DNA of 64,000 nucleotides from Thiomicrorhabdus sp. Milos-T2 (GTDB taxonomy: Bacteria > Pseudomonadota > Gammaproteobacteria > Thiomicrospirales > Thiomicrospiraceae): contig NZ_KL370891.1 of assembly GCF_000702325.1 (NCBI RefSeq), forward strand, positions 62,001-126,000, written 5' to 3'. Positions 1,601-64,000 of this stretch are shown here, piece by piece. How positions within the stretch are numbered: the stretch's first letter is position 1; every line of letters begins with the position of its first letter. A program made the translations under genes and the position numbers. Under the pieces are notes generated by a model. That model was not told the DNA's origin and made no database searches. It worked only from the letters and a program-made list of their open reading frames with translations.

Positions 1601-3400
1601 TTAGCTACGCTTAGGTGCTCTACGTGGCTTACCTTTATCTTTTCCCGGAGCAGAAGATTTATTGCGTGATAGACGCTTACGTGGTTCACCACCTGCAGAT
1701 CCTGTGACTTCACGAATTTTAAGCTGTTGACCACAAACCCATGCTTTGCTTAGGTCTTCTTTAGAACCTTTAGGCATATCAGATGGTAAATCAACTGTGC
1801 TGAAAGTGTCTTCAATATTTAACTGACGAATAAATTCGCTGTCTAGGCCGGCTTCGTTTGCAATACAACCTACGATATTACCTGGGCGAACACCATGCTG
1901 ATTACCCACTTCAATGCGGAAACGTGTCATGCCTTCATCAGGTGTCGCTGAGCGTTGACGACGTGGTTTACGTTCTGAACGCTCACCACGACCACCGCGA
2001 CCTCCACGACCTCCTCGTTCATTTCGACCACCGCGATCATTTGATCCTGCATTACGTTCTGTACGAGGTTCACGAATTGGCTTGTCAGACATGAAGAATG
2101 GAATATCACCCTGTAATAAACGTGCTAAACCAGCCGCGATTTCAATCGCAGGAATGTTTTTCTCAGTTTCAATTTGCTCAATCATCTCTTGATAGAAAGC
2201 AGTGTCTTCTAGTTGAGTTGCTTCAACAATACGTGACTTAAATTTATCAACACGACTGTCATTGATGTCTTGCGTTGAAGGTAAAGTCATTTCAGGTATT
2301 TTGCTCTTAGTTGTTCTTTCAATAGAGCTAAGTAGACGACGTTCACGAGGTGTTACAAATAAAATGGCATTCCCTTCACGACCCGCACGACCGGTACGGC
2401 CAATACGGTGAACATAAGATTCATTGTCTTGCGGAATGTCGTAGTTAAATACATGGCTAATACGTGGAACATCAAGTCCACGTGCAACAACGTCGGTTGC
2501 CACTAAAATGTCTAACTTACCTTTTTTAAGTTGGTCAACAATGCGTTCACGTTGGTTTTGAGCAATATCACCATTAAGTGCTGCTGCTGCATAACCACGT
2601 GCTTCTAAACGCTCGGCTAAATCAACGGTAGCGGTTTTAGTTCGTACAAAGATGATTGAAGCATCAAGTTTTTCTTCCGCTTCTAAAATACGGGTTAAGG
2701 CATCTAATTTATGACCACCGCTCACCAAAAGATATTTTTGTTCAATTGTCGTAGCTGTTGCTGTTTTATTCTTAATAATGACTTCGGTTGGGTTCTTTAG
2801 ATAGTTCTTAGCAATGCGGTGAATTTCTTTAGGCATCGTTGCAGAGAATAAAGCAATTTGACGGCTCTCTGGGGTTTGTTGCAGAATCCACTCAACGTCA
2901 TCTATAAAGCCCATGCGCAACATTTCATCTGCTTCATCTAAAACTAATAACTTAAGATTGTTAAGTTTTAAAGTGCCTTTACGAATATGGTCCATAACAC
3001 GACCCGGAGTACCAACCACAACGTGAACACCACGGTTTAAAGCACGAATCTGGGTTCCGTAATCTGAACCACCATAGATAGGAAGTACATGAAAGCCTTT
3101 CATGTGGTGTGCAAAGCTTTGAAATGCTTCTGCCACCTGAATCGCTAATTCACGAGTAGGGGCTAAAACTAAAATTTGGGGATCTTTTTGCTTGATATCA
3201 GCTTTTGAAAGGGCTGGCAAAGCAAATGCAGCTGTTTTACCCGTACCTGTTTGTGCCATACCTAAAATATCACTACCCGTCATTAAGGCAGGAATCGCCT
3301 GAGCCTGAATTGGAGAAGGCGTTTCATAGCCAATATCCGTTATGGCTTTAAGTACGTCAGGGGTTAAGTTTAAATCTTTGAATGTTACATCAACAGTCAT
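1601..3400 (-). CDS. deaD: DEAD-box ATP-dependent RNA helicase (DeaD/CsdA type)
   Basis: An RNA helicase expected to act in ribosome assembly and mRNA remodelling, especially in the cold. It carries the full motif set in order: Q motif (SPIQAQAIP), Walker A (AQTGTGKT), PTRELA, DEAD, SAT and HRIGRTGRAG. These are followed by an Arg/Gly-rich linker at about residues 455-480 and a C-terminal RNA-binding domain of the DbpA type (TRFRIEVGNQHGVRPGNIVG). About 599 residues is the normal DeaD length. The ATG at 3400 is chosen because AAAGGA lies six bases upstream; an in-frame ATG at 3418 has no such site. It is monocistronic, with a long leader and its own terminator. Confidence 0.93.
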   Translation of the reverse strand: MTVDVTFKDLNLTPDVLKAITDIGYETPSPIQAQAIPALMTGSDILGMAQTGTGKTAAFALPALSKADIKQKDPQILVLAPTRELAIQVAEAFQSFAHHMKGFHVLPIYGGSDYGTQIRALNRGVHVVVGTPGRVMDHIRKGTLKLNNLKLLVLDEADEMLRMGFIDDVEWILQQTPESRQIALFSATMPKEIHRIAKNYLKNPTEVIIKNKTATATTIEQKYLLVSGGHKLDALTRILEAEEKLDASIIFVRTKTATVDLAERLEARGYAAAALNGDIAQNQRERIVDQLKKGKLDILVATDVVARGLDVPRISHVFNYDIPQDNESYVHRIGRTGRAGREGNAILFVTPRERRLLSSIERTTKSKIPEMTLPSTQDINDSRVDKFKSRIVEATQLEDTAFYQEMIEQIETEKNIPAIEIAAGLARLLQGDIPFFMSDKPIREPRTERNAGSNDRGGRNERGGRGGRGGRGERSERKPRRQRSATPDEGMTRFRIEVGNQHGVRPGNIVGCIANEAGLDSEFIRQLNIEDTFSTVDLPSDMPKGSKEDLSKAWVCGQQLKIREVTGSAGGEPRKRLSRNKSSAPGKDKGKPRRAPKRS

Positions 3401-54791: not shown

Positions 54792-55046
54792 AAACAGAAT
54801 ATCAAAATTAAGGCAATGTTTAATAGTGTAGCGGCTTATTGTGATAATTAAAATAAATAATCCAAGCAATAAAGTAATAATCAAGTAAAGCTTGTTTTAA
54901 GTTAATTTTTGTCGAGTCATCTAATTTTAAAAATTAAACTTAACCTGACAAGACAGCAGTTAATTACTAACCTAACTTGATAAAAATTCATTATCAGATT
55001 TGAGTTATTTTCCACTTTTCTGATGCTTATATAGAAGCTTGGATAA
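54792..55046. other. AT-rich spacer upstream of the receiver-GGDEF-EAL gene
   Basis: About 255 bases with no gene that I can support. It probably carries the promoter of the response-regulator gene. It grades into a long repeat (55047-55277). Confidence 0.35.
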
Positions 55047-55277
55047 ACGCCTTAAGTCCCCTTGTAATAAATGGTGCAAGGTTCTTAGCGTAGTGAACGG
55101 TAAAAAAACGCTGCTGTTTGAGCGTAGCGAGTTCAGCGTTTTCAGTTCACAAGCTTAGAACTTGCCCATTTATGGAGCGGGGTTTGTTTTTTGGTTACTT
55201 TTTTGCCAAATTGCAAAAAGTAACGGGAAGCCTGAATGACAATATTTAAGGCAAAGGCTAATATTTTAAAGGCTTCT
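55047..55277. repeat. Long dispersed repeat, family 2, copy 1
   Basis: Matches the segment at about 61766-62000: CCCCTTG-AATAAAT, GTGCAAGGT, then AACGCTGCTGTT, GAGCGTAGC, GAGTTCAGCGTTTTCAG, AGAACTTGCC, and GGGAAGCCT with GGCTTCTCAA at the end. The beginning and middle are inverted repeats of each other (AATAAATGGTGCAAGGTTCT against AGAACTTGCCCATTTAT). Confidence 0.75.
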
Positions 55278-55326
55278 CAATCGCTGTACTTTCTGGTTAA
55301 ATCTAAGCTTTTACACCTAATACCAA

Positions 55327-59813: not shown

Positions 59814-60326
59814 TTAAAAGTTAAATAGGAGTTGAGTCATTAAAAAGGCACTCATAAAAAATACCGCACCGGCTAATAAGCTAGGAGGGTTCATCATGGC
59901 ACCGCCCACTAATGCATGGCCCGTAGTGCAAGCTCCGGCTAAGCGAGCACCAAAACCTAATAGCATGCCTCCAAAAATTAACCAAATCGCTTTAGCAGCA
60001 TCGGATTGGGGTAAAATTTCTTCATACATTCCCATGTCAAAACTCCAATGCCAAGGTTCTGGCGAGCTCAATGCACTTAACAAGCCACCAATAGGGATGC
60101 CAATTAAAAACCATAATTTTGTATTGTTGCGTTGGCTATATTCACCTTGGCGGTAGAAACTCATCTTTTTACAGATGTAGCCACAAACATTGCCATACCC
60201 TGTAGAGCAACCAGCGGGTTTACCAATTAACCAAAAATGTAAAATTACAAATAAGCCAATAGCGAGTCCAGCTAACCATCCACTCCACACTGAAATTTCC
60301 ATTACAGTAAGTCCTAATAAAATCAA
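59814..60326 (-). CDS. YeeE/YedE-family half-transporter, first gene
   Basis: A 170-residue membrane protein with about five helices. Signature pieces are GKPAGCSTGYGNVCGY and LLGFGARLAGACTTGHALVGG, with conserved Cys in both. It pairs with the next gene (gap 10 bp) to make a full YeeE-like channel. The substrate is inferred from the family, not from this sequence. Confidence 0.87.
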   Translation of the reverse strand: MILLGLTVMEISVWSGWLAGLAIGLFVILHFWLIGKPAGCSTGYGNVCGYICKKMSFYRQGEYSQRNNTKLWFLIGIPIGGLLSALSSPEPWHWSFDMGMYEEILPQSDAAKAIWLIFGGMLLGFGARLAGACTTGHALVGGAMMNPPSLLAGAVFFMSAFLMTQLLFNF

Positions 60327-60404
60327 TAATGCTGGTATTGTTAAATGTTTTGCTTAATGAGTCAAAACAGGGTTTTTATTAGGTCGATAAGTAAGACTTA
60401 TTTA

Positions 60405-60416
60405 ACCAGGCCTGGT
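60405..60416. repeat. 12-bp palindrome ACCAGGCCTGGT
   Basis: Perfect copy in the spacer between the YeeE-like pair and the CPXCG gene. Confidence 0.9.
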
Positions 60417-60447
60417 TGTTTTAAAGAGAAGGTTTTTTTGCATCAGT

Positions 60448-60639
60448 TTAGTAATAGTCATCATCTTCGCTGAGTGCTTGAATATTGGTATTATTAGAGT
60501 CGATATCCACAATTAAATGAATAGGTCGACAGCACACAAAACAGTCTTCAATATATTCCTGGTGTGGTTCTGAAGGATCAATTACCAACTCAATGGTTTC
60601 CGAGCAATAAGGGCATTGAATATTTTTAGTGTCTAGCAT
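60448..60639 (-). CDS. CPXCG-motif Cys-rich small protein
   Basis: A 63-residue protein with IQCPYCSETIELVID and DCFVCCRPIHLIVDID, two Cys pairs typical of the CPXCG family of small zinc-ribbon proteins of unknown function. The ATG at 60639 is chosen for the GAGG eight bases upstream; the frame extends to a GTG at 60648. Confidence 0.85.
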   Translation of the reverse strand: MLDTKNIQCPYCSETIELVIDPSEPHQEYIEDCFVCCRPIHLIVDIDSNNTNIQALSEDDDYY

Positions 60640-60664
60640 GACGTTCACCTCGTTTTATCTAATA

Positions 60665-60940
60665 GAGACCTTAGCACCCAAGGGCATAAACACGAGATAG
60701 GTGCGAAAGAAAAATAGGCGTGAGTACCCCTTGAGGGTAAAAAATTTGCCTGATTCTCGACTTACCCCTTCGGGCGTCGAGTTCTTCGTTTGCGGCGGAA
60801 AGTGCAGGGAATAGCTAGCTATTAGCAAGTTGTCGCCCAACGGAAGTGCCCTTGGGGTACAACAAAAATCAGGTGAATTTTTACCCTCAAGGGGCACCTA
60901 GAACCATTTTTACTCGTGCATATTCTCGTGCAAAGGTCTC
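60665..60940. mobile_element. MITE-like fold-back element, 276-bp long form with TAATA duplication
   Basis: The longest copy, from GAGACCTTAGCACC to GTGCAAAGGTCTC, with perfect TAATA on both sides (60660-60664 and 60941-60945). It has an extra TACCCCTTGAGGGTAAAA block near the left end. It lies upstream of the CPXCG gene and gives a spurious ORF at 60655-60897. Confidence 0.9.
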
Positions 60941-60966
60941 TAATAGTGTTAATGGTAATAGTTTAG

Positions 60967-60978
60967 ACCAGGCCTGGT
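60967..60978. repeat. 12-bp palindrome ACCAGGCCTGGT
   Basis: Perfect copy between the MITE and the YjfB-like gene, in its presumed promoter region. Confidence 0.9.
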
Positions 60979-61073
60979 TAGTTAGAATAAATCTATTTTA
61001 TATTTCTGCTAAAGAATTTAGAAACCGGTCGATAACTTACTATAACGATAGGTTTAATTAAGAGGGAAAAGCA

Positions 61074-61289
61074 ATGGATATTTCAAATGTTTCCGCAGGA
61101 GCAATGGTTAGCGCGGCTTTGGCTCAACAAGAAGTTTATGCACAAAACCAAGTGAATGTTTCCATGTTTAAAAAAGCCTTAGATACGCAATCTCAAAATG
61201 CGATGACGCTAATTGATTCTTTACCACAGCTACCAAGTACCCAAGGATTACCGGCTAATTTAGGCAATAACATTAATACTACTGCTTAA
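61074..61289 (+). CDS. YjfB-family small protein
   Basis: A 71-residue soluble protein starting MDISNVSAGAMVSAALAQQEV, matching the YjfB family (putative motility protein), which has the same N-terminal pattern and a Gln-rich middle. AGAGGGAAAAG precedes the ATG. No flagellar genes are nearby. Its role is unknown. Confidence 0.78.
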   Translation: MDISNVSAGAMVSAALAQQEVYAQNQVNVSMFKKALDTQSQNAMTLIDSLPQLPSTQGLPANLGNNINTTA

Positions 61290-61321
61290 TTCTTAATATT
61301 TAGTTCGGGCTTTAGAATTCT

Positions 61322-61333
61322 ACCAGGCCTGGT
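61322..61333. repeat. 12-bp palindrome ACCAGGCCTGGT
   Basis: Perfect copy 32 bp after the YjfB-like stop codon. Confidence 0.9.
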
Positions 61334-61719
61334 AAAACCCTAAATAAGTTGATTTTCATAATTATTGAGAAGCCTTTTTGATATTTATAGGTCTTTAATC
61401 TCATGGCACTGGCTTCCCGTCACCTTTTCTCGTCTCTTCAGCCGAGTTCTTTTTTTGCTGTTCGACAAAAAATAACCAATACGCGCCCTGAAAGAATTGC
61501 CCTTAGGGCAAACCCTAAAGACACAATCTATTTCACTAAGTTTGCTAGCTAAGATTTCAAAACTCGCTCGTGCCCTCAGGAAATGCCCTTGGGGTAATCA
61601 AACAGCACAAACTTTTAACCGCAGCCTTCACTAAGTAAAAGAGCGATTTCTTACAGAGGGAGGTTTTTTACGTTAATTCCGTATTTAGAGTTCTTCGATA
61701 GCTTGTGCTAAATTATTTG

Positions 61720-61731
61720 ACCAGGCCTGGT
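61720..61731. repeat. 12-bp palindrome ACCAGGCCTGGT
   Basis: Perfect copy in the repeat-rich spacer, 35 bp before the family-2 repeat copy. Confidence 0.9.
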
Positions 61732-61765
61732 CGGTTGTCTTTTTAATAGTTGAAGAAAACCACAA

Positions 61766-62000
61766 ACGCCAAAACTCCCCTTGGAATAAATTGTGCAAAG
61801 GTCTTAACGAAGTGAACGATTAAAAAACGCTGCTGTTAGAGCGTAGCTTGCGAAGCGAGTTCAGCGTTTTCAGTGAATGAGTTTTAGAACTTGCCAATTT
61901 ATGGAACGGGGTGCCCTAGTTGGCTTACCTTATTGGGTAAGCAATAAGGTAAGGGGAAGCCTAAAAGCAAACCTAAAGGTATATAAATAACAAAAAGGCT
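61766..62000. repeat. Long dispersed repeat, family 2, copy 2
   Basis: Same order of blocks as the copy at 55047-55277: CCCCTTGGAATAAATTGTGC, AACGCTGCTGTTAGAGCGTA, GAGTTCAGCGTTTTCAG, AGAACTTGCCAATTTATGGA and GGGGAAGCCT, ending with GGCTTCTCAA. It has a tandem GCGTAGC/GCGAAGC variation and a hairpin TTACCTTATT-GGG-TAAGCAATAAGGTAA in place of the corresponding hairpin of copy 1. Confidence 0.75.
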
Positions 62001-62131
62001 TCTCAACCTAGGTAGTTCATTTAATTTACTTTGAAATTAATTGTTTTTATATAAATCCTCATGAACATAATAATATACAAAAATTTACTGCTAAAATGTT
62101 TTTTGTATTTTTTTTGCAAAAAGGTAATTAA

Positions 62132-62452
62132 GTGGCTCTGGTAAAGATAGGTATATTTGCAGCTTTAGTTTTGCTTTTTGGCGTAATTGGCTTTGATTAT
62201 CAAGACGTAATAAAAACAATTTTTGCAATTGTGTTGGTTGTTGTTATTGGATTACTTAGTTTGTTTTTTCTAGCATGGGTTTTGAATACAGAGGTGACTC
62301 CATTTTTTTTAATTAAGGCACACAAATTAAAAAAGTTGAAAAAAAAGAAGAATTTGAAGATAGTCATGAAGGAAAAATTAATGCCTTGCAAGAGAAGTAT
62401 TCAACAAGGTCAGTTAAGTATGACAGCAAAATTCGAATTCGTTGGATTGTAG
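62132..62452 (+). CDS. Small membrane protein, probable N-terminal half of the pentapeptide-repeat protein
   Basis: A 106-residue frame starting with GTG after an AAGGTAAT sequence. It has two membrane helices (about residues 4-22 and 28-50). After about residue 70 it becomes Lys-rich and low-complexity. At 62339-62346 there is a run of eight A followed by G, containing the slippery heptamer A AAA AAG in frame. A one-base backward shift there would continue into the next frame with an acidic stretch (EEFEDSHEGKINALQ) and then the pentapeptide-repeat protein. The 106-residue form may therefore be an unshifted product or an artefact of an indel. Confidence 0.6.
   Translation: MALVKIGIFAALVLLFGVIGFDYQDVIKTIFAIVLVVVIGLLSLFFLAWVLNTEVTPFFLIKAHKLKKLKKKKNLKIVMKEKLMPCKRSIQQGQLSMTAKFEFVGL
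62339..62347 (+). other. A8G slippery run joining two reading frames
   Basis: Eight A followed by G, read as AAA AAA AAG in the upstream frame and so containing A AAA AAG, the heptamer used in dnaX-type -1 frameshifting. A -1 shift continues in the open downstream frame. No clear stem-loop or Shine-Dalgarno-like stimulator was seen next to it. Confidence 0.5.
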
Positions 62453-63837
62453 TTTCAGGTTTTATTGCATTTATTGTTTTATTGATTATTTGGTTATTGG
62501 TACCAAATGATTTTGATGATAGAGCTTTTTCACCTGTCATTGCATTGCTGGTTGGCGCGCCTGTTGGTCTAGTTATTTGGTATTTTAGAGACCAAAATAA
62601 ATTAAGTGAACTAGAAAGGCATCATCATGATGTAACTCTTAAAGAGTTTCAAAAATTGCAAAAGTGGGCTACTGGCAATATAGAAAGTGGTTTCGATTCT
62701 AACGGTAAACAACTGAAGCATGCCGAAACACTTCAAGTGTCAGCTTTACACTCATTAAGACCGTATTTGAGGGGTGAGTTTGGAGAGAACTTCAAGCGAA
62801 GCGCTTATGAGATTTTTATAAGTGTTTTGAAAACTGAACACCGAAAAATTTTCGAAAAATTAGAATTAGAAAGAAGACCATTGATTTATGAAAATATCCA
62901 AAGTGCCATCAATGAAGTTAGTTTGGTAAAGCAGGTTAACCAGATTGCTTCAGAAGAGTGGTTTTCATTATTAATTAACCATGATTATTCGACTAAGGGA
63001 ATAAGCCTCGTCGGAGTAGATTTAAGTCAAAAATATTTAATCAAATTTTCTGGTGAGGGAATTGACCTTAGTGCCTCTAAGTTGCAGGGGGCTAATTTAA
63101 GCTATTCGTTTATTCAAAAAGCAAACTTGTGGGATGCAAACCTTCAAGGTGCAAAATTGCGCAAAACTAGAATGCAGCAATCAGATCTTAGGTTAACTAA
63201 TTTTATTAGCACTGATTTGACTTTGACTTATTTTCAAGGATCCCGTTTTTATCGCAATGATTTTACAGGAGCAAATTTAGTAGGAGCTAACTTTACTGCT
63301 TGTTATCTATATTCGGTTGACTTTTTAGGTGCTCATCTAGTAGGAGCTAAATTTATCGGGGCTGCTTTTATGAATTGCGACTTTATTGGTTGCAATCTGT
63401 CTGGCTCAGATTTTTCTGGAGTTGGGAGCTTTCAGCTAAAGTTTTCAGGTTGCTGTTTAGGCGGAAGTAAGTTTTTTTGTGATGTTTCAGATATTAGCTT
63501 TAATGGTGTTAATTCTGATAACAATATTATGCCCTGTGACAATCCTGTCCAGTATTTAAAGTCAAATGTGAATACAAAAAGTGATTTAAGTTTTTTAACT
63601 AACATATCGGATAACTTAAATTATGAAGGGGCAATTAATGATTTTAATAAGTACGTCATTGATAAAGATAATGCCGGTGATGTGAGGCTTCTTAATGTCT
63701 TGAAAAAGCCTGCTGGTGAAGCAAAGTCTGGCGAATACACAGAAGCGAAAATGTTAAAGTGGATTGAACATATCAAGAAGTATGAATATGTATATAACTA
63801 TTTTGAAGAATTTACAATTCAGGATGATCATCTATAG
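62386..63837 (+). CDS. Pentapeptide-repeat membrane protein
   Basis: A 483-residue frame if started at the TTG at 62386; the same frame is open back to 62341. It has two membrane helices (about residues 24-43 and 50-68), a helical linker (about 75-205), then pentapeptide repeats of the A(N/D)LxG kind (about 210-370: GANLSYSFIQKANLWDANLQ, and GANLVGANFTACYLYSVDF). The repeats should form a right-handed beta-helix. The start lies inside the upstream membrane ORF without a ribosome binding site, so a fused four-helix protein made by frameshifting, or a real gene broken by an A-run indel, is likely. The function is unknown. Confidence 0.8.
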   Translation: MQEKYSTRSVKYDSKIRIRWIVVSGFIAFIVLLIIWLLVPNDFDDRAFSPVIALLVGAPVGLVIWYFRDQNKLSELERHHHDVTLKEFQKLQKWATGNIESGFDSNGKQLKHAETLQVSALHSLRPYLRGEFGENFKRSAYEIFISVLKTEHRKIFEKLELERRPLIYENIQSAINEVSLVKQVNQIASEEWFSLLINHDYSTKGISLVGVDLSQKYLIKFSGEGIDLSASKLQGANLSYSFIQKANLWDANLQGAKLRKTRMQQSDLRLTNFISTDLTLTYFQGSRFYRNDFTGANLVGANFTACYLYSVDFLGAHLVGAKFIGAAFMNCDFIGCNLSGSDFSGVGSFQLKFSGCCLGGSKFFCDVSDISFNGVNSDNNIMPCDNPVQYLKSNVNTKSDLSFLTNISDNLNYEGAINDFNKYVIDKDNAGDVRLLNVLKKPAGEAKSGEYTEAKMLKWIEHIKKYEYVYNYFEEFTIQDDHL

Positions 63838-63907
63838 CTGTGATTTTCATTGAATATAAAGTTTTATGTATAAAAGCCACTATAAAGCAGCTTTTTATTT
63901 TAGTAAA

Positions 63908-64000
63908 TTACTGCGAAAAATCTTCTGGGTCGTAACCTAGGTTAGGTGCTAACCATTTTTCGGTTTCTTCAATGCTCCAGCCTTTACGTTGTGCATAGTC
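63908..64000 (-). CDS. metH: Cobalamin-dependent methionine synthase MetH, C-terminal fragment
   Basis: The last 30 codons of a minus-strand gene that runs off the window. The peptide ends [20 protein letters not shown] followed by EDFSQ, which matches the conserved C-terminus of the MetH reactivation domain. The stop TAA is at 63908-63910. The rest of the gene is outside. Confidence 0.85.

Follow-up and report, generated by a model that had tools for sequence, protein, structure and literature searches.

Two overlapping reading frames in the 64,000-nucleotide stretch of Thiomicrorhabdus sp. Milos-T2 DNA analysed here (the window) raise the question of whether they are two genes, one gene read through a programmed -1 frameshift at the heptamer A_AAA_AAG, or one gene whose frame has been broken. 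The most likely answer is that the frame is truly disrupted, in an ordinary way, and recoding is not favoured. Our preferred explanation, to which we give an even chance of being right, is that a dispensable accessory gene, coding for a membrane-anchored pentapeptide-repeat protein, recently suffered an indel of one base. The genome that holds the window amounts to 2.66 Mb in two contigs and is 99.99% complete. The features of the locus are given in Table 1.

Table 1. Reading frames and sequence elements of the locus, in window coordinates.
Feature	Position	Strand	Description
0-frame ORF	62132-62452	+	106 aa, GTG start; first hydrophobic hairpin, lysine-rich linker, then out-of-frame tail
-1 frame	62317-63837	+	506 stop-free codons; second hydrophobic hairpin, helical domain, pentapeptide repeats, C-terminal helices
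First in-frame A_AAA_AAG (A6G)	62329-62335	+	Best-scoring junction with L003
Second in-frame A_AAA_AAG	62341-62347	+	Within A8G at 62339-62347; slip site first proposed
ORF from TTG	62386-63837	+	483 aa; candidate internal restart, one hairpin plus repeats
Pentapeptide-repeat region, approximate limits	62995-63513	+	Pfam PF00805; beta-helix in model; structural matches

Two frames and a single homologous protein

The upstream frame and its A8G run are as given in the preliminary description. The downstream frame, which had been placed as open from 62341, is in fact open eight codons earlier, being bounded upstream by a TAA at 62314-62316, and past the junction it shows neither a further stop nor a further frame break over its 506 codons. 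The proposal that the two frames are halves of one protein was borne out by a congener (genome G003), where the homologous locus L003 is a single ORF of 495 aa. By tblastn, residues 6-64 of this protein match frame 1 of the window and residues 107-487 match frame 3. The upstream half aligned to the L003 N-terminus with a score of 88, which none of 1,000 shuffles reached (mean, 34.7; maximum, 66), and the remaining two frames of the same DNA scored 29 and 25. A homology-validated join of two frames, as looked for in frameshifted pseudogenes, is thus present, and sequence comparison supports the view that both frames belong to one gene and one protein. The reading as two unrelated genes was rejected, since both halves match L003, and none of the relatives found is split into two genes in the same way. 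An annotation should accordingly enter both ORFs as a single gene with a disrupted frame, neither as two genes nor as a recoding site.

Every possible junction between the frames was scored against L003 and against L004, its counterpart in a second congener. With L003 the best score (683) fell at the first heptamer, compared with 678 at the A8 run (62347); with L004 the corresponding scores were 520 and 513, and the single best junction (525) lay at 62317. Under a fourth-order codon model that had been trained on the genome minus the target, the -1 frame scored +4.5 versus -1.1 for the 0 frame over 62317-62347, and clearly higher, +6.2 versus -7.7, over 62348-62452. Homology and codon statistics, by small margins, mildly favour the first heptamer, or a point just before it, over A8. 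The slip site named at first, A_AAA_AAG within A8, does exist, but the other heptamer appears to fit slightly better. The upstream half itself scored -1.5 in its 0 frame under the codon model, versus -48.9 and -22.6 in its other frames. This -1.5 is at or above only 2 of 564 in-frame control stretches, and a gene HMM classed 62132-62385 as non-coding, hence leaving the frame change of the target uncalled; both results count against our preferred explanation. The T-rich membrane stretch may explain the low coding score.

The downstream frame is a member of Pfam family PF00805 (E = 2.3e-32; 110.6 bits, gathering cut-off of 20.2). Its AlphaFold2 model (mean pLDDT of 69.8; pTM of 0.59), most confident in the helical and repeat parts, shows a beta-helix in the repeat region, and the best structural matches of the model are pentapeptide-repeat proteins, which also head the sequence matches to solved structures. 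Judging from Pfam, hydropathy, and the model, the intact protein would have two hairpins in the membrane, with the conserved helical domain and the right-handed beta-helix held on one side. Some pentapeptide-repeat proteins, such as Qnr and MfpA, bind DNA gyrase. Against the Qnr family model (NCBIfam NF033086) the score was 46.1 bits, below the curated cut-off of 240. PADLOC returned nothing for the downstream half or for L003, and its CARF-TM match of the upstream half (E = 0.0041; 14.6 bits) is weak and was taken as a matter of membrane composition. The region of the gene (60300-64000) had no Rfam match up to an E value of 0.5.

Sporadic distribution and repeated damage

Among 32 genomes from the genus, and likewise among 62 from the order, three have the gene: the present genome, G003, and G024. 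When 369 genomes were drawn evenly from the class, the gene turned up in the present genome and also in G283 and G381, which both belong to one other family, where 6 of 83 genomes match. Among the closest relatives, identity to the downstream frame of the window ranged from 37% (L061) to 59% (L003). Genome and viral contig scans with a single protein peptide pattern gave no close relatives. With an alignment, the genome contig scan gave 22 loci, whose record titles include alpha- and gammaproteobacteria among others, and the viral contig scan gave no relatives. In tblastn against 185 plasmid and 298 phage records, all matches were below 60% identity and no place covered 80% of the query; the 20 matches listed for each cover mostly the repeats. 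A protein search of 95 relatives gave 18 matches at E ≤ 0.001, and among the matches listed, those beyond this genome, G003, and G024 concern the repeat part only.

The surroundings of the gene, read by eye, vary. In the window (61074-64000) its neighbours are a small YjfB-like ORF on one side and, on the other, a minus-strand gene that looks like the end of MetH, and at L003 and L004 it adjoins a class III aminotransferase gene (BioA-like). Since these neighbours differ, the gene probably sits in different insertion places in the window and in L003/L004. Of the six gene-bearing genomes in the symbiont family, five (L025, L027, L028, L029, and L030) show the same two genes flanking it, one dioxygenase-like and one for an AmpD-like amidase. 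The window also contains a dispersed repeat of about 240 bp, at 61762-62006 and 55045-55280 (another copy is at L049:4880-5118), with at least 24 copies at 93 to 100% identity in this genome, the window copy at 61762 being diverged, and at least a partial match in 19 of the 32 genomes of the genus. Seven copies have a common predicted fold of 79 pairs, of which only 4 show changes on both sides (covariation term, +1.92), so that covariation lends the fold no support among these seven; one copy had no Rfam match up to an E value of 1.

At least 6 of the 28 copies of the gene are disrupted (the window gene, L004, L025, L029, L030, and L075), and further disruptions could be hidden in L074, L079, and L080, which are truncated at contig ends. 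The 5′ end of L004 lies inside an insertion sequence (boundary near position 2822 of L004; 10 matches in that genome), and no N-terminal remnant was recognised by eye in the translated frames beyond it. In L025 (2212-2470), L029 (1200-1430), and L030 (2060-2374), the frame changes within the pentapeptide repeats. These are 3 of the 6 gene-holding genomes of the symbiont family, and more than one frame stays open in their repeat DNA (readings QLQGAN, HNYKGRI, and TTRGEF); repeat-driven frame switching and assembly error are both possible there. In L075, from a Cardiobacteriaceae metagenome-assembled genome, the frame changes at 3204-3285, where an A-rich stretch containing an A7 run codes for lysines. 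Like the window gene, L075 breaks in an A-rich stretch, but at another place in the protein. A gene that is sporadic in the genus and repeatedly broken is what is expected for a dispensable accessory function.

On the conservation check proposed in the preliminary description, the frame change of the window gene was absent from all the relatives that could be judged. In 23 of the 27 other copies (L003, L025-L029, L064-L073, and L076-L082), a single frame leads from a start codon through the hairpin ahead of the helical domain. Four were left unjudged: L004, cut by the insertion sequence; L030 and L075, with unclear N-termini; and L074, at a contig edge. L061, L062, and L063 are identical to L026, L027, and L030 and were counted once, whereas L065 and L066, which do not differ over the 200 residues compared, were kept as two records.

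The single ORF of L003, the absence of the frame change from 23 of 23 relatives, the sporadic gene, and the disrupted copies all speak for an indel. A runs are mutable, and a one-base slip of DNA replication would have taken place in the A-rich linker between the hairpins, most likely at either A run. Translation from GTG 62132 would then stop at 62452, past the first hairpin, and any full-length protein would have to come from background slippage at these runs, which may yield traces of it. We infer that the indel is present in the DNA of the organism, with the product lost or strongly reduced, and that it is recent, because the downstream frame is intact over 506 codons. That intact frame fits a sequence error, a rescue by slippage, or a working internal start equally well. 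A homopolymer at the frame change, as phase variation uses, is present in the form of the A6 and A8 runs, and A8 is short for a phase-variation switch. Work by Wernegreen in 2010 reportedly dealt with selection that maintains frameshifts in homopolymers. Among the papers listed for pentapeptide repeats with phase variation and for the genus, none concerned this gene.

Possible assembly error or internal restart

Of the readings offered at the outset, a pseudogene by recent indel and a sequencing error both remain. An assembly or base-calling error in the homopolymer, in which case the gene of the organism would be an intact single ORF, is in our view unlikely, although the junction has A8 and A6 runs and the lesion stands alone in an otherwise open gene. 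Three classes of singleton are distinguished in PMC3711429 (pseudogene, hypothetical pseudogene, and error), and where BLASTp validates a single case, a sequencing error is expected there in preference to a genuine indel. This expectation counts against ranking the indel above the error, whereas a clean sample of the assembly counts for that ranking. The sample comprised 20 stretches plus the window (464 kb), with 16 same-strand frame transitions, none of which lay within 40 nt of a run of at least 7, despite 186 A/T runs of at least 7 on the coding strand of 331 sampled genes. Each of the 16 passed a filter for gene overlaps, a stop in the old frame lying no more than 31 nt away and a start in the new frame close by. 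This filter is not decisive, because such a stop also lay within 30 nt of 67 of the 121 planted breaks that were detected, and the argument against an error-rich assembly rests on the absence of runs of at least 7 near transitions. The detector caught those 121 among 160 single-base losses planted in A/T runs of at least 6, but missed the target itself. The assembly is not obviously error-ridden.

A second alternative, which we hold to be improbable, is a working split gene, with the TTG at 62386 starting a protein of one hairpin plus repeats. This TTG is the first common start codon of the downstream frame, and the statement that it has no ribosome binding site did not survive closer inspection: an AAGGA at 62369-62373 pairs with the anti-Shine-Dalgarno sequence at -5.7 kcal/mol, better than the -4.0 kcal/mol of AAAGG (62120-62124) ahead of GTG 62132, though its gap of 11 to 12 nt is long. 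Most distant relatives likewise have one hairpin ahead of the helical domain by hydropathy, the extra N-terminal hairpin being found in the window gene and L003. TTG is generally a weak start, however, and this one lies inside the motif SHEQKIKxLQxKYA, conserved among the window gene, L003, and L004. Because the motif begins upstream of the TTG, homology crosses the proposed start.

Possible slippage at the heptamers and comparison with known systems

Programmed frameshifting calls for a slippery heptamer in the 0 frame, and A_AAA_AAG occurs there twice, spaced 12 nt. Across the 331 sampled genes, this in-frame motif was observed 24 times compared with 25.5 expected from codon frequencies, so that it is not avoided and its presence by chance is to be expected. 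Two such heptamers within 60 nt were found in none of these genes; the A-rich linker may be the cause of the tandem. Neither L003 nor L004 has the in-frame heptamer. The remark that no stimulatory hairpin was visible needs qualifying, since one 102-nt window starting at the A run folded better than most shuffles (z = -2.28; 5 of 200 equally good). For the other windows the remark stands: a 141-nt window gave z = -0.25, and the 100 nt downstream gave -1.22 for the second heptamer and -0.59 for the first, with 2 of 21 control heptamers below -1.22. The controls were 21 of the 24 sampled in-frame heptamers, three near gene ends being excluded. A strong stimulatory hairpin was considered, with the best fold starting 2 nt past the second heptamer, and was rejected, its significance being gone with other window limits. 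Some 9 to 10 nt 5′ of the first heptamer lies a UAAGG resembling a Shine-Dalgarno element (-3.7 kcal/mol), equalled or bettered in 6 of 21 controls. Neither the downstream folding nor the upstream element stood out clearly from the 21 control heptamers. Programmed frameshifting at A_AAA_AAG, among the readings offered at first, is not supported, because the site is unshared by 23 relatives, the motif is common in the genome, and the candidate stimulators do not stand out from the controls; no positive support for it was seen.

The same observations bear on a rescue of the broken gene, by the ribosome at A_AAA_AAG or by RNA polymerase at the A runs, that would yield a useful fused four-helix protein. 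The tandem arrangement, the UAAGG, and the 102-nt fold are in its favour, and corrective frameshifting and "pseudo-pseudogenes" are reviewed in PMC5009743. In E. coli, A_AAA_AAG is among the most efficient motifs when stimulators are present, and the unstimulated motifs of the same study did not rise more than 10-fold over a background near 0.06% (PMC4066793). Insertions during transcription increase with the length of A/T runs (PMC5574713). With the site unshared by relatives, the motif as frequent as expected, and the candidate stimulators not standing out from controls, we consider such a rescue doubtful. Were it true, the window gene would be a cellular instance of A_AAA_AAG slippage that is neither an insertion sequence nor dnaX. 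It is highly improbable that slippage at the tandem heptamers is the sole source of a full-length four-helix form, with unshifted ribosomes releasing the first hairpin, the TTG giving a one-hairpin form, and the cell setting the ratio of the two topologies.

The A_AAA_AAG genes of insertion sequences and dnaX (PMC4066793) share with the window gene the phase of the heptamer, the -1 direction, and a long second frame. The window gene differs in that its site is not conserved in the relatives found, it has no stimulator above controls, and it is neither an insertion sequence nor dnaX. The singletons of GeneTack, as described in PMC3711429, come closer: they likewise concern one genome, a homology-validated join, and poly-A near the break, with no conserved frameshift site, and nothing was seen that distinguishes the window gene from them. 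As a protein, the window gene resembles a group of membrane-anchored PF00805 proteins of proteobacteria with a FRDxN..KDxxLKEFQ helical domain (L003, L004, L025-L030, and L064-L082). The order of hairpin, helical domain, and pentapeptide repeats is the same in both, whereas the window gene has a frame change in the linker.
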